Below, one piece after another: positions 1,155-6,111 of a stretch of DNA of 32,188 nucleotides; position 1 is the stretch's first letter; the number at the start of each line of letters is the position of its first letter. The stretch covers positions 1 through 32,188 of the IMG/VR virus record IMGVR_UViG_3300044950_000123. The stretch is one strand, 5' to 3'. The position numbers were made by a program, and so were the translations under genes. The notes beneath the pieces are model-generated. The model was not told where the DNA came from, did no database searches, and was given only the letters and a program-made list of their open reading frames with translations. Source of the stretch: a virus.

Positions 1155-1886
1155 TTATCGGTGAGCAATGACTGCTGCCAAGTCATACATCTTGCCATTC
1201 TTGGCGATGCCATTGGCTTTGATAATCTTATGCACCTGCCGTTGGCTGATGCCTAACCATAACGCTATCGCCTCTGCATCTAAAAAGAACTTACGACTTG
1301 GATTAGACATTGCTAAAGCTACAAGGCGCAACACTGTCCACGATTGCTTGCACCCGAAGCAACTCACATCGCTCATAAGGTTTTCTGCATCAATGACAAC
1401 ATACTTACCGCAATCATCTGTTGGGCAAGGAATCCGTCTAGGTTGCTCAACAAATTGCTTAGCAGCAGCCATTCCCTTTGCGTGCTGCTCTTTGATCTCA
1501 CTATAGAAATCTGCTGCCCATTCTTGGCCTAGTGTCCATTCAAGGTGAGCAAGTTGAAAGTCGCAGGCAACCTGAACTTCTTGGTCAATGCTCGGTTCCT
1601 TCTTGAGCAGCGCGGGCGGTGTCAACTGCCTAGCGCTGCGAATCTCTGACTCCCAACTATGTAAGATGCCCAGTAACTCGTTGGCCATTGAATAATCTAA
1701 TGCGTTGACATTGACACCGATACTGCGCTCGGCGCTGACTGCGCCACTGCCTGATCTGCCTGGTTCAATGTAAAAGCCTGCCTGATACTGCAACTCAGGG
1801 ATACTTGTGAGCCACACAATTATTGCCTTGTGACATCCTCGGCAGGTAATTGTCTCTGTTGGGCGCAGGCAGATGTTGCAGTTCAA
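1155..1886 (-). CDS. Zinc-ribbon and HTH DNA-binding protein, 243 aa
   Basis: Probably a phage DNA-binding protein. An N-terminal zinc knuckle (C3xxC6, C15xxC18) and a second zinc site (CPTDDC, then CFGC around residues 154-178) precede a C-terminal helix-turn-helix near residues 202-243, with an ALWLGISQRQVHKII pattern typical of an excisionase/MerR-like or sigma-like HTH. The start is the TTG at 1886: it overlaps the previous stop as TTGA and has GAGAAGGTG 7 nt upstream, a strong ribosome-binding site. Such Zn-HTH proteins are common in actinophage early regions; target and role are not known. It could be a replication or transcription regulator given the adjacent iteron array and primase. 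Confidence 0.7.
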   Translation of the reverse strand: MNCNICLRPTETITCRGCHKAIIVWLTSIPELQYQAGFYIEPGRSGSGAVSAERSIGVNVNALDYSMANELLGILHSWESEIRSARQLTPPALLKKEPSIDQEVQVACDFQLAHLEWTLGQEWAADFYSEIKEQHAKGMAAAKQFVEQPRRIPCPTDDCGKYVVIDAENLMSDVSCFGCKQSWTVLRLVALAMSNPSRKFFLDAEAIALWLGISQRQVHKIIKANGIAKNGKMYDLAAVIAHR

Positions 1887-2224
1887 AATGGCACCTTCTC
1901 ACTGGTTGTGGATAACTTTACCCGATTGAAGTAATCAGGTGCTTGCTCGGCAAATACAGTCAATGGCCTGCAGGTGTGGGTGGCAAGGACGATGGGCGCT
2001 GCCGACTTCATCCGCGTTGCCGTTCTTCGAGTTGCCTCAAATGATTGGGCAGTGCGGTGGATTTCGTAGGTGGCTAGGCCAGCAGTCAGTGCCAACACTT
2101 CTTCAGGCAGGTTGAGTCGGTTCGTATCAAGTTTGATGTCGCATCGGCTGGTTGCACTAACCCCTGCCCAAATAAGATTTCCGCAGGTTCGGCAGTTAGT
2201 AGGTTTGAAATCAAGGTAGCTCAC
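1883..2224 (-). CDS. Hypothetical zinc-binding protein, 113 aa
   Basis: Not recognised as a named family. The N-terminus has CRTCGN and further on a C near residue 28, and THTC near residue 84, which together could bind one zinc. The middle is helical and Arg/Ala-rich. The start is GTG at 2224, with only a weak GAAAG upstream. The gene lies immediately downstream of the iteron region at 2241-2374 and overlaps the Zn-HTH gene by 4 nt, so the pair probably works together, possibly in replication control. That role is inference from position only. Confidence 0.6.
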   Translation of the reverse strand: MSYLDFKPTNCRTCGNLIWAGVSATSRCDIKLDTNRLNLPEEVLALTAGLATYEIHRTAQSFEATRRTATRMKSAAPIVLATHTCRPLTVFAEQAPDYFNRVKLSTTSEKVPF

Positions 2225-2240
2225 AATAGGTATTTCTTTC

Positions 2241-2374
2241 TATCCTGCGTTTTCCAACTGTGAATCCTGCATCCTGCGTACTCTATAAGTACGCAGGATT
2301 GCAGGATAGAATCACGCTCATTGTTCCCGTATCCTGCAACCCTGCGTGCAGGATAAACGCAGGATGCAGGATAG
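2241..2374. repeat. Iteron array, candidate replication origin
   Basis: Nine exact copies of the 7-mer ATCCTGC or its complement GCAGGAT lie in 131 bp: four forward (2242, 2264, 2271, 2331) and five reverse (2293, 2301, 2348, 2359, 2366), plus the near-copy ACCCTGC at 2339. Copies are often paired head to tail in adjacent units. Two units form an 11-bp perfect inverted repeat (2271-2281 and 2289-2299) around the AT loop TCTATAA. The array sits in the only gap next to the primase-helicase gene. Iteron clusters with palindromes are typical of replication origins; an operator array is the main alternative. Confidence 0.7.
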
Positions 2375-2377
2375 GTT

Positions 2378-4504
2378 TTAACCAAGATTGTTACCGCCAA
2401 TTGCAGTAACTGATGCCAATTTTAGTTGGTATTTCTGACCACCAGCATCGGTTAAATAGAACGCAAACCCGCGACCCTTACCCTCATCAGCAATTGACCC
2501 TGTGGATAACATTGCCTCAAGTCGCTCATAAATCGTGTGATCGCCACCCTTAACACCCTTTGCAACCTCACCCTTTGTGCAGCCTGGATGAGTGGCAATA
2601 AAGGTTGCAATCGCCTTTTCCATCTTCAGTTCCTGATCTTCAATTACTTCATCTTCAGACATTGGAACGCAAATCACATACTTCATAATTGCACCCGTTG
2701 AATCAACCTCAACAATGGCAGCTTCTTGGGTACGGTCAGATTTACGCCAAATGCCTGAATTACGGCGCACCGCGCCTGGTCTATCTTTAGTAACTCGAAC
2801 AGTCAGCGCACCCGCACCGCCAGGGGCAAGGTTCTTAATTGGCTCGATTAGGTAGGCTGCACCGTCAATGGTTGCCAACTTAGCCTGGCCGCCAATGGCA
2901 AAGCGCCCGCGAGTTTCGGCGTTCTTGGTGATGTGGTCAACGAGAACTACGGCTGCACCTGACTTGGCAAGCGCTCTTGGAAACTCTCGCATCCACTTTG
3001 TAATGTCATCGTTCTCTTTTGTGGCCCCATCCCACATTGTCAAAGATTCGGTTACACCGTCAATTACAATAAGAGTTGCGCTGCCTTCCTCTAATAATGA
3101 CAACCAAGCGGGGTCATCAAGTAGGTTGCGCCGTTCAGGTCGGATATAGCGGAAATACTGCACCGCTTCAGGTTTGGTTACACCCAAGATTTTTAGGCGT
3201 TTGGCAATATCAATGGCATCAGATTCAAAATCAATATACACAACCTTTTTATAGCTCTTGAGGACTTCAGCGGCAGCGATCTGCGCCAACCACGATTTAC
3301 CCGATTCGGATTCACCGTAAAACGAGTGAACCTTGCCAGGGTAAAGCAAGCCTTGCCCATCAGTACGCTTTAAGATGGTTGCCTCTTGAATAGTAAATAA
3401 GCCATCAAAGTAATCATCTAGTGGGATTGGCTCCCAAGTAGTGACAAATGGCTCCAAATCGCCTTCAGTGGCTTGTGGTGAGGTGTTTGTGGCAGGTTTT
3501 GGCATCAGGTTCTTGCTTAAATCAAAAGAATTCAGCCCCTGCGGGCCATATCCTTTGTTTCGTAAATCTGTTGCCGCTTGCTTAAAATCGCCGTTGTGGT
3601 GAATCAACGCATAGGCTCCAAACTTGTCATAGGAACGCTCTGCCTCAAATATGGTGGATGTTGAGAACACGCGGAATTTGTCGGTTCCCTGGTAATTGGT
3701 AGTGGCACTAACACCGAAATCCTTGCCTGGTCGTGTCCACGCCGTTTTCTCACCCTGCGTGTAAGCCTTTTTCCAACCTAGCGGTATCAGGATTGAATCC
3801 CAAGTTGTGCGTTGGTTGTAGTCATCGCCAGGCGTTAAAACACCATCGGTACGCGGCTTGATCTGCTCTGCGATAATAGCTCGTTCAGGCATTTCATCAA
3901 AGATTTTGAATATGTCGTGCAATGCTTCGCGCTCACTAGCGGTAATTGTCGGGATGCTACTAGCGCTGCCAGCAATCATTTCCCACGCAGTACCTTTAGG
4001 ATGTGTGCCACCGTGACTTGGCGCAGTGATGATGTAACCGCCGCTGCTGCGCGTTTCGGCTAATACATCCACACCGCCATTTTCACCAGGGCGGCGTGCG
4101 AGTTTGGTATTGCCTGGCAACTCCATACCCTCAACGCGATACAACCAATGGATGCCACCGCCTGCAGATTGCTCTACATAGCCGTTATTGATCTTGCTCC
4201 ATAAATCGCCAAGCCCTGAAGCCTCTGCAATTTGTCGTGCTTCAATGTGAATATCGGCCTGAACTGCTCGGCCTTCAATCTCAAGAACTTCAAGATTGCC
4301 TGAAATAGCACCCGTGACAATTCCTAAGCCTTCATAACCGTTTGAGTACCACGCAATTACCTGTTCGGCAGTAGCCCGTTCAGATTGGTATTTTTTCCAT
4401 TCACCAATGGGTGCCTTTGTGCCATCTACTTTGGCTGGAACTACTGAACAACCTGCTGCGTAGAATTCCAGCGCAGCTTTAAGCATTGGGTTTAGATCAG
4501 TCAT
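2378..4504 (-). CDS. Primase-polymerase/helicase replication protein, 708 aa
   Basis: Main replication protein: an N-terminal primase-polymerase (bifunctional prim-pol, AEP superfamily) fused to a RecA-fold ATPase/helicase. Residues about 1-190 show the prim-pol pattern: VVPAKVDGTKAPIGEW, GLGIVTG, the acidic strand LEIEG, and the SGGGIHWLYR histidine motif. The ATPase has Walker A GESESGKS (residues 397-404), Walker B LIVID (478-482) and VLVDHI (519-524), as in RepA/DnaB-like helicases. A winged-helix segment lies near the C-terminus. The start at 4504 is preceded by AAGGGGGC; the longer frame from 4552 would overlap the HNH gene. The acidic pair is E-x-E where D-x-D is usual. The iteron array directly downstream supports an initiator/helicase role. 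Confidence 0.9.
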   Translation of the reverse strand: MTDLNPMLKAALEFYAAGCSVVPAKVDGTKAPIGEWKKYQSERATAEQVIAWYSNGYEGLGIVTGAISGNLEVLEIEGRAVQADIHIEARQIAEASGLGDLWSKINNGYVEQSAGGGIHWLYRVEGMELPGNTKLARRPGENGGVDVLAETRSSGGYIITAPSHGGTHPKGTAWEMIAGSASSIPTITASEREALHDIFKIFDEMPERAIIAEQIKPRTDGVLTPGDDYNQRTTWDSILIPLGWKKAYTQGEKTAWTRPGKDFGVSATTNYQGTDKFRVFSTSTIFEAERSYDKFGAYALIHHNGDFKQAATDLRNKGYGPQGLNSFDLSKNLMPKPATNTSPQATEGDLEPFVTTWEPIPLDDYFDGLFTIQEATILKRTDGQGLLYPGKVHSFYGESESGKSWLAQIAAAEVLKSYKKVVYIDFESDAIDIAKRLKILGVTKPEAVQYFRYIRPERRNLLDDPAWLSLLEEGSATLIVIDGVTESLTMWDGATKENDDITKWMREFPRALAKSGAAVVLVDHITKNAETRGRFAIGGQAKLATIDGAAYLIEPIKNLAPGGAGALTVRVTKDRPGAVRRNSGIWRKSDRTQEAAIVEVDSTGAIMKYVICVPMSEDEVIEDQELKMEKAIATFIATHPGCTKGEVAKGVKGGDHTIYERLEAMLSTGSIADEGKGRGFAFYLTDAGGQKYQLKLASVTAIGGNNLG

Positions 4505-5180
4505 TTTTTGCCCCCTTGCGTAAATTACAAATAGCGTGTGATGGTCGTACATTTTCTAATGTATCAGGCCCACCTTTTGAAATTGGAATCAAATGGTCAA
4601 TATGAAGGCCAAATTCCCAATTATCTTTTTTTGCGCTTCTTGAACATAACAAATCAATCTCAAAATTACAAATATGACATTTTGTTCCATATAAATCAAT
4701 TACTTCAAATTCCTTGTATGGTATGTAGCCGTTATTTGTTTTTTTATTGCGCCTTCTTCTTACAGATTCTGGCCCATATTGAGGATTATTTTTTCTCCAT
4801 TGTTTTTGTAATTCTTTAATTTTTTCTTTATTTTTTTCATAATACTCTTTGCTATATTTTGTCATTTTTTCGTAATTATTTGTTTGATATTCTTTGTAAT
4901 ATTCTTTTACTTTTTCAGAATTTTTAAAATCATATTGTTTTTTGTACGCTGATCTAGCATTTTTACATTCAACGCAAGATTCTTGATTTTTGTTTAAATG
5001 CGCCCTAAAACCAGCGTAAGTACCACATCTATTATCTGATGTTTCATTATTTTTTGTGTTAAAATCTGACACATTAGCTCCCTTCAATGAGCTGATCACG
5101 CCCCTGGCCGTTAGCGCGGTGCAGGGGTCTTTAATGTTCTTGAATTGTATGCTGATAATTGAAACTTTGCTGGTTCTCAT
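4497..5180 (-). CDS. AT-rich HNH homing-type endonuclease
   Basis: A C-terminal HNH nuclease: CHICNFEIDLLC, then HIDHLIPISKGG, then NVRPSHAICNLRKG. The middle is Lys/Tyr/Glu-rich coiled-coil. An upstream zinc module (CGTYAGFRAHL, then CVECKNA) is often seen with actinophage HNH proteins. The gene from about 5070 leftward is much richer in AT than its neighbours, a sign of recent acquisition. Start is ambiguous: ATG at 5180 (227 aa) overlaps the HTH stop as ATGA, while GTG at 5072 (191 aa) has AAGGGAG 5 nt upstream and coincides with the base-composition change. The 36 residues between are unlike the rest and may be remnant of an older gene. Confidence 0.8.
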   Translation of the reverse strand: MRTSKVSIISIQFKNIKDPCTALTARGVISSLKGANVSDFNTKNNETSDNRCGTYAGFRAHLNKNQESCVECKNARSAYKKQYDFKNSEKVKEYYKEYQTNNYEKMTKYSKEYYEKNKEKIKELQKQWRKNNPQYGPESVRRRRNKKTNNGYIPYKEFEVIDLYGTKCHICNFEIDLLCSRSAKKDNWEFGLHIDHLIPISKGGPDTLENVRPSHAICNLRKGAKND

Positions 5181-5368: not shown

Positions 5369-5523
5369 CCGTCACCCTTGAGAATAATGCCACCCAATGA
5401 ATACTTGCGTTGCATTAACTTCTTCTTGCAGCCTTCGCAGATGATTCGCTTTTCATCATCCATTTGAAAAAATACTTCAGCGGTATGCCCACAATCACAA
5501 AAAAACTCATAAAAAGGTGCCAT
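5353..5523 (-). CDS. FmdB-type zinc ribbon protein, 56 aa
   Basis: Matches the small FmdB regulatory zinc-ribbon family: it opens MAPFYEFFCDCGH (first zinc pair CxC/CG), has a second pair CEGC in the middle, and closes with GGIILKGDGWGGK, the family's typical C-terminal GI-x-FKGSG motif. The start at 5523 has GGGGGAAC 4-11 nt upstream. These proteins are common in actinobacteria and some of their phages; function is unproved, proposed nucleic-acid or regulatory binding. It overlaps the HTH gene and follows the tRNA-like element. Confidence 0.75.
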   Translation of the reverse strand: MAPFYEFFCDCGHTAEVFFQMDDEKRIICEGCKKKLMQRKYSLGGIILKGDGWGGK

Positions 5524-5550
5524 TTGTTCCCCCGTTCGTTAAGTCTTGCG

Positions 5551-5622
5551 TGGCGTTGCAGGAATCGAACCTGCAGTTGCATCCCCCGATGCAATCCCTC
5601 ATCTGTGAACCATCACAACGCC
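5551..5622 (-). tRNA. tRNA-like element, atypical
   Basis: On the minus strand GGCGTTG (5622-5616) can pair with CAACGCC (5558-5552), followed by A. A canonical T arm is present: GCAGG, loop TTCGATT, CCTGC. There is a D-arm-like hairpin (GTGA/TCAC) and an anticodon-arm-like hairpin (TTGCAT/ATGCAA) with loop CGGGGG. But the T arm and acceptor share one base, the variable region is 2-3 nt, and U33 is missing, so no anticodon can be assigned with confidence. It may be a degenerate tRNA, a tRNA mimic, or a remnant of an attachment site. The T-arm match is the strongest evidence. Confidence 0.45.
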
Positions 5623-5661
5623 GATCTCTTGGGGTCGAAAGGACAACCACCCCAAGAAGTT

Positions 5662-6111
5662 TTAGTTAACTGGTTTTGCTCCCAGTTGTGCCAACAACGC
5701 CTGAACTGCAGGGTCATTGATGTTAGCAGATGGCACCGCCGCTGGCGCTGGCGCACCCGCGTTGCCAATAAATGCGTTTGCCTTAGCCACTGCATCGGCA
5801 TCGCCTGTGGCATCTACTAATATCCACGGCGCAGACTTTCCAGGCTTTGCCGTTCCCTGACCAATGCGAGCCAATACCTTTTGGCCGATCTTTGTTTTCA
5901 ATGCGTTCTTCAAAGCTACATTAAAGAACAGCACTGATTCGTGGCTGAGGCCAGTATCTAAATCATTGATGCGTACTTCAATTGCATCTGCATCACCGTG
6001 AACTGTTGGAATACCTGTTTTGTATTCAACCGCTTCAAGGATGAGCAAGTGTCCGTTCAAATCGGCAACTTTAACCGATTCTGTGTTACTGCTAGGTGCT
6101 GAAAAAGCCAT
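5662..6111 (-). CDS. Putative ssDNA-binding-like protein, 149 aa
   Basis: Residues 10-110 look like an OB-fold-type beta-rich domain (VADLNGHLLILEAVEYKTG, then AIEVRINDLDTG, then KVLARIGQGTA), followed by an Ala/Pro-rich linker and a short helix (VQALLAQLGA). It is not a classical SSB: I see no acidic tail. In many actinophages a protein of this shape sits beside a Cas4/RecB-like exonuclease and is suspected to bind ssDNA during recombination; that applies here by synteny with the nuclease at 6250-6990. Start at 6111 has CGGGGGAAA upstream. Function is inference. Confidence 0.55.
   Translation of the reverse strand: MAFSAPSSNTESVKVADLNGHLLILEAVEYKTGIPTVHGDADAIEVRINDLDTGLSHESVLFFNVALKNALKTKIGQKVLARIGQGTAKPGKSAPWILVDATGDADAVAKANAFIGNAGAPAPAAVPSANINDPAVQALLAQLGAKPVN

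Follow-up and report, generated by a model that had tools for sequence, protein, structure and literature searches.

The window analysed here is a whole viral contig of 32,188 bp that carries terminase, portal, major head and tail genes, with its replication genes located at 1–8 kb on the minus strand. Between the stop codon of a prim-pol/ATPase gene (724 amino acids if translated from the first ATG, although a later one may be the true start) and the first codon of a gene encoding a 113 amino acid protein lies a gap of 153 bp, which is the subject of this report (Table 1). Genes of the HNH/endonuclease VII type are found around the replication module, at 68–415, 360–734 and 4497–5180.

Table 1. 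Features of the replication locus in the window (coordinates are window positions; a dot marks features without a strand)
Feature	Position	Strand	Basis or remark
Prim-pol (PF09250) + RecA-type ATPase/helicase (PF13481) + predicted C-terminal winged helix	2378..4552	-	Pfam, models
Codons of predicted winged-helix tail, aa 633–707	2432..2656	-	model
Helix 3 of the predicted tail, aa 671–684	2501–2542	-	
Iteron array: nine ATCCTGC, both orientations, and one ACCCTGC	2242..2372	.	sequence
Half A, nearer the helicase: near copy 2339–2345 and four exact units (2331, 2348, 2359, 2366) in an inverted cluster	2331..2372	.	
Half B: four exact units in an inverted cluster around the central palindrome, at 2264, 2271, 2293 and 2301	2264..2307	.	
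Outlying single ATCCTGC unit	2242..2248	+	
Central palindrome	2271..2299	.	perfect 12-nt arms 2271–2282 / 2288–2299, 5-nt spacer CTATA
TGAGCGTGA element, in the 23-bp spacer separating the half-arrays	2312..2320	-	
113-aa downstream gene, phrog_10480	1883..2224	-	homologues mark the gap in relatives
Exact DnaA box TTATCCACA	1907..1915	-	inside 113-aa coding region
Exact DnaA box TTATCCACA	2501..2509	-	inside helicase-tail coding region

Four of the exact ATCCTGC units lie on the plus strand (at 2242, 2264, 2271 and 2331) and five on the minus strand (at 2293, 2301, 2348, 2359 and 2366). An earlier note on this DNA had counted nine exact 7-mers and a near copy within 131 bp and judged them far above chance, and both statements hold on recounting: the contig contains 12 copies in all, against a mean of 3.7 and a maximum of eight in dinucleotide shuffles, and the chance of finding nine in 131 bp is ~1e-22 by a simple Poisson estimate. 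The inverted repeat that it described is also present, but its arms are 12 nt long around CTATA rather than 11 bp around TCTATAA. Two further features emerge. In order of transcription there is an inverted cluster of units (2372–2331), then a second inverted cluster (2307–2264) and an outlier (2248–2242), and the gap folds strongly as single-stranded DNA (–41.2 kcal/mol compared to –15.7 for shuffles, z = –9), with half A forming a stem-loop of its own.

The protein encoded upstream of the array has Pfam matches to Prim-Pol and AAA_25, and its full-length model resembles RecA/KaiC proteins, with the pRN1 primase also among the fold matches. A separate domain is made up of the last ~90 residues. 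For this tail, an AlphaFold model built on a 33-sequence alignment has the order helix–helix–helix–strand–strand with pLDDT ~90, and VIA-align scores it at Z up to 11.6 against MarR-type proteins and 10.3–10.6 against the centromere protein AspA, with TubR also matched among many winged helices. A profile search with the tail returned BlaI and MecI (E 0.0015–0.002). The tail is predicted on this basis to be a generic winged helix, a fold that alone is no proof of DNA binding. The 113 amino acid protein on the other side of the array had been labelled Zn-HTH, a label that finds no support here: neither an HTH nor a Zn domain was detected in it, Pfam returned nothing and it matches phrog_10480.

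Relatives were collected by homology scans of viral contigs and phage records and by a bacterial genome scan, giving 144 distinct loci at which a helicase relative is followed by sufficient DNA. A significant array, defined as a 6-mer repeated more often than in nearly all shuffles and located no more than 250 bp from the helicase stop, is found 3' of the helicase in 115 of the 144. The remainder includes loci where an inserted gene separates helicase and array (L007 and L014, the latter with an HNH-like ORF at 5374–5862) and loci of the L006 type, which have few, longer repeats (AAGGTAA); these are individually non-significant by k-mer count but were retained in the class set for their evident palindromes and shared position. 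Clustering on common k-mers gave 28 unit classes among 125 loci, including GTGTACC, GTGTTCC, AACCGATCCGC, CACAACGC and GACCTCGTCCC (single-linkage clustering merged CCGTTCC with GTGTTCC loci, and recoding these left the close-pair AUC values given below unchanged). Within any one array all the copies are of one kind, and they switch together. The motif TGAGCGT is found in the gap of several otherwise unlike unit classes.

Hairpins are widespread: a stem with a score of 8 or more (pairs less a mismatch penalty) is present in 86% of the 125 arrays, compared to 1.9% of shuffles. In the GTACC/GTTCC group, four of the ten stem pairs have changed on both sides, with 100% of cells paired, and on this comparison of sequences the hairpin is preserved through compensated stem changes. 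The earlier note had called for a comparison of the same gap in related phages; the array is there, usually with a hairpin, and the loss of repeats from close relatives that it named as a counter-argument does not apply, the unit being replaced and not lost.

The unit itself is a poor guide to such loci. When all viral contigs were searched for three copies of ATCCTGC, the only matches besides L003, a close relative of the window, were repeats with no helicase relative in the DNA examined, most of them simple TGCATCC repeats, and ATCCTGC alone is therefore not diagnostic. A contig (L268, 9667–9690) has ATCCTGC repeats beside TATCCACA, again with no helicase relative detected in the DNA examined. 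Different unit classes also occur in the same metagenome, as among the contigs of samples 3300042691 and 3300042549 (e.g. L010, L020, L033; L006, L046, L097). A further contig, IMGVR_UViG_3300044971_001158, has the helicase gene at both ends (L098 and L113), which suggests that it is terminally redundant.

Several relatives are isolates or prophages. Arthrobacter phages Peas and Karkharias have the same prim-pol domain, together with a helicase that by eye looks like an SF3-type enzyme, and carry AGTGACAC arrays underneath an annotated ORF (Peas gene 61, L052 6475–6816; Karkharias gene 59, L258 5996–6337); both of these genes may be mis-annotated. Streptomyces phage Dagobah, which grows on S. 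coelicolor M600, has a hairpin and a CGGTTCA array whose start lies within the 3' end of the coding sequence, and Streptomyces phage KimJongPhill has no array. In phages Bridgette, RootBeer, Judy and Eileen (L255, L256, L257 and L259) an extra stretch, apparently a small opposite-strand gene, lies between helicase and array. Microcystis phage MinS1 (L320, MZ923504.1) has ten GGGACGA units behind its ATPase gene; it encodes Lsr2 and DUF3263 proteins and an actinobacterial-type initiator, and its host label may be wrong. Among 40 prophage relatives, the interval scanned contains a significant array in 20 and none in the other 20. Janibacter terrae NBRC 107853 carries the module twice on one chromosome, the tails being identical (L299 and L300). 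Since the genome-scan matches are nearly all labelled as Actinomycetota genera (L304 is an uncultured bacterium), the host of the window phage is probably an actinobacterium.

Which protein reads the unit? We compared close pairs of loci, in which the RecA domains are at least 85% identical, 634 pairs having the same unit and 565 having different units. Identity in the tail separates the two groups with an AUC of 0.913, compared to 0.71–0.76 for the prim-pol, linker and RecA domains and the 113 amino acid protein (0.73 for the last of these), and when the loci were bootstrapped 300 times the tail was the best predictor every time; the pairs are non-independent and are dominated by the GTACC/GTTCC contrast. 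Counted per alignment column, different-unit pairs show their largest surplus of differences in helix 3 (0.34); the value is 0.29 in helix 2 and 0.03 in the RecA domain, and position 672 differs in 84% of different-unit but only 8% of same-unit pairs.

L181 (unit GACTAGTTCCC) and L225 (unit GACCTCGTCCC) differ at 23 of 726 positions, 13 of which are in the last 76, and, apart from the tail and a ragged N-terminus, L180 (unit GACCCTTTCCC) resembles L181 to a similar degree. In window numbering, changes at 668, 670 and 671 are common to both comparisons, with further changes at 663, 664 and 675 (L181 versus L225) and at 676 and 680 (L181 versus L180). In distant phages and in prophages of Actinomycetota, A/S671 combined with R675 is paired with CGTCC (L225, L004, MinS1, the Nocardioides prophage L295, L303 and L304) or TGTCC (L282) in seven of seven cases, R671 with R675 is paired with CGC in four of four (L188, L189, L297 and L307), and L675 is paired with TTCC in three freshwater loci (L181, L180 and L184), an exception being L273 (T671, L675), with GAGTCAG/CCCTGAC. 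This pattern was seen before it was counted and involves few loci, and we offer it as a prediction, not an established result.

The 113 amino acid protein adjoins the array and has homologues at 112 of the 125 classified loci, and it could in principle be the reader in place of the helicase. Its divergence, however, does not track the repeat unit across relatives. Between the window and L006 it is 97% identical, whilst the helicase domains are 13% and the tails 7% identical and the units are unrelated; between the window and L003 it is only 65% identical, yet the helicases are near-identical and both loci have the ATCCTGC unit. Because its identity is decoupled from the unit in this way, and with the lower AUC among close helicases and the lack of a detectable HTH also against it, we rejected the 113 amino acid protein as reader and give that reading hardly any credence. 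The likely reader, judged from these covariations, is the C-terminal winged helix of the helicase. L006 and its relatives (L010, L012, L031 and L128–L130) have the prim-pol domain in common with the window, with the ATPase at 13% identity, another tail and another unit; this is whole-module replacement beside a near-identical 113 amino acid gene.

Exact DnaA boxes provide a separate line of evidence. The window contains exactly two, compared to 0.22 expected in the whole contig, one on each side of the array. In a smaller set of loci, 94 are found in the 135 kb between –400 and +700 bp of the helicase stop but only two in the other 795 kb of those loci, counts that common ancestry inflates. 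With the gap excluded, the DnaA box fills ten separate 20-bp bins across the larger set of 144 loci, in both orientations, ranking first among its 1,680 anagrams. At least one exact box is present at 53% of the 144 loci and none is found near about half the arrays. Because their positions and orientations vary across classes, these sequences argue for repeated recruitment of DnaA boxes. The two boxes flanking the window array, and the strong enrichment around arrays generally, are what is seen at DnaA-assisted iteron origins, and host DnaA probably assists here too. Iteron plasmids likewise have iterons and DnaA boxes at one locus, but their initiator is a Rep protein without a helicase, where here it would be a primase-helicase.

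The earlier note had proposed a replication origin or its control array, and this remains the best-supported reading given the location, the conserved array, the tail–unit covariation and the clustering of DnaA boxes. An operator, through which the tail or another phage protein would regulate the 113 and 243 amino acid genes with no direct role in replication, would fit the position of the array between co-directional genes, just upstream of the 113 amino acid start, and the fact that MarR/BlaI-type winged helices are usually repressors. The co-varying reader, however, is fused to a primase and a helicase, DnaA boxes cluster on both sides, no promoter-like site was found in the gap, and an array of at least eight sites, arranged as two inverted clusters and accompanied by a hairpin, goes beyond an ordinary operator, so that we regard this reading as improbable; auto-regulation may nonetheless be a second role of the array. 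Iterons are typical of centromeres as well, and the matches of the tail model to AspA and TubR (among many winged helices) could point to a partition site made of iterated sites bound by such a protein. That the reader belongs to a primase-helicase, that terminase, portal and tail genes mark the window as a phage, that no ParA or TubZ match was found among the 20 ORFs scanned and that the DnaA boxes point to initiation together make this very improbable indeed. Two other candidates were discarded: a transcription terminator, the palindrome being without a T-run, and a tRNA or att site, there being no tRNA in the window. The sole terminator-like site in 1800–2700 is at 2390–2410, within the 3' end of the helicase coding sequence, and does not exceed chance expectation.

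We are thus fairly confident that the array is the replication origin of the phage and that its initiator is the upstream prim-pol/helicase, reading the 7-bp unit with its winged-helix tail and acting according to the full ring-loading model set out here. The anatomy, the conserved location, the tail–unit covariation, the conserved hairpin and the clustered DnaA boxes were read directly from the DNA. We infer DNA binding, ring loading, strand opening and priming by analogy with known systems, and also a part for DnaA. The winged-helix tail would bind both inverted iteron clusters, each of which would collect a set of subunits and load one helicase ring, giving two rings in all. The DNA would open at the spacer or the palindrome, possibly helped by host DnaA on the flanking boxes, and the prim-pol domain would prime on the exposed strand. 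Tail and iterons would form a matched pair, with helix 2/helix 3 and all the iterons changing together; alternatively, the whole helicase–tail–array module would be swapped whilst the neighbouring genes stay. In the window, in four relatives and in MinS1, the GC skew that the earlier note had suggested as a check runs monotonically past the array without switching; coding there is nearly one-sided, and skew is uninformative either way.

The principle is already known. In SaPI Rep and SCCmec Cch2 the C-terminal domain recognises sequences directly 3' of its own gene (PMC7581432), and PICI origins have two iteron sets (PMC6092414). The present array is built like these Rep–ori units but on an unrelated helicase: short iterons in two sets lie directly 3' of the gene of an initiator helicase with C-terminal DNA recognition, predicted here from covariation and fold. 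The SaPI/PICI helicases are, however, of the D5/DUF927 type and belong to satellites, whereas here an AEP prim-pol is joined to a RecA-type ATPase, the carriers are complete tailed phages (virion genes being present on the window contig) and Actinomycetota prophages, and exact DnaA boxes surround the array. Where the SaPI/PICI origins have an AT-rich region between iteron sets, the spacer between the two inverted clusters of the window is 52% AT. The pRN1 protein ORF904 also combines prim-pol, helicase and C-terminal winged helix (here PF09250 and a winged-helix model) and needs a stem-loop 3' of its gene (PMC4234260), comparable in position to the palindrome described above, but its helicase is SF3 and it has no iterons, whilst here the helicase is RecA-type and iterons dominate. 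Phage P4 alpha is likewise a primase-helicase recognising repeats at its origin (as described in PMC4234260), though with a TOPRIM primase instead of an AEP prim-pol. In the Vibrio satellite PLE, origin iterons change under selection by an origin-directed nuclease, with swapping of replication modules (PMC8263062); changed iterons and module swaps are seen here too, but the PLE initiator is RepA_N, whereas here many specificities are built on the same initiator scaffold. What is new, as far as we found in a search of openly available papers, is that complete phages carry an initiator of RecA-type prim-pol design, that DnaA boxes surround it and that one scaffold bears many matched tail–iteron switches.

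On balance we lean towards a broader view, in which actinophages share one conserved module whose origin address has been rewritten repeatedly, tail and iterons diverging into at least two dozen specificities with a partly readable residue–base code, probably avoiding cross-talk with or attack by co-infecting phages, satellites and origin-targeting nucleases. Interference between co-infecting phages is one possible cause of the divergence; origin-targeting nucleases, by analogy, are another. If correct, this would predict the origin and the initiator in a large set of actinophages and prophages, among them phages isolated on laboratory hosts, and would supply a natural library of matched initiator–origin pairs, some only a few residues and a few bases apart. 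It would become testable how a winged-helix initiator shifts its DNA address yet keeps its function, and whether phages with a common host escape interference through divergent origin addresses, much as plasmid incompatibility groups do. The position of the array and the class of the tail could also help to annotate origins in uncultured phages.
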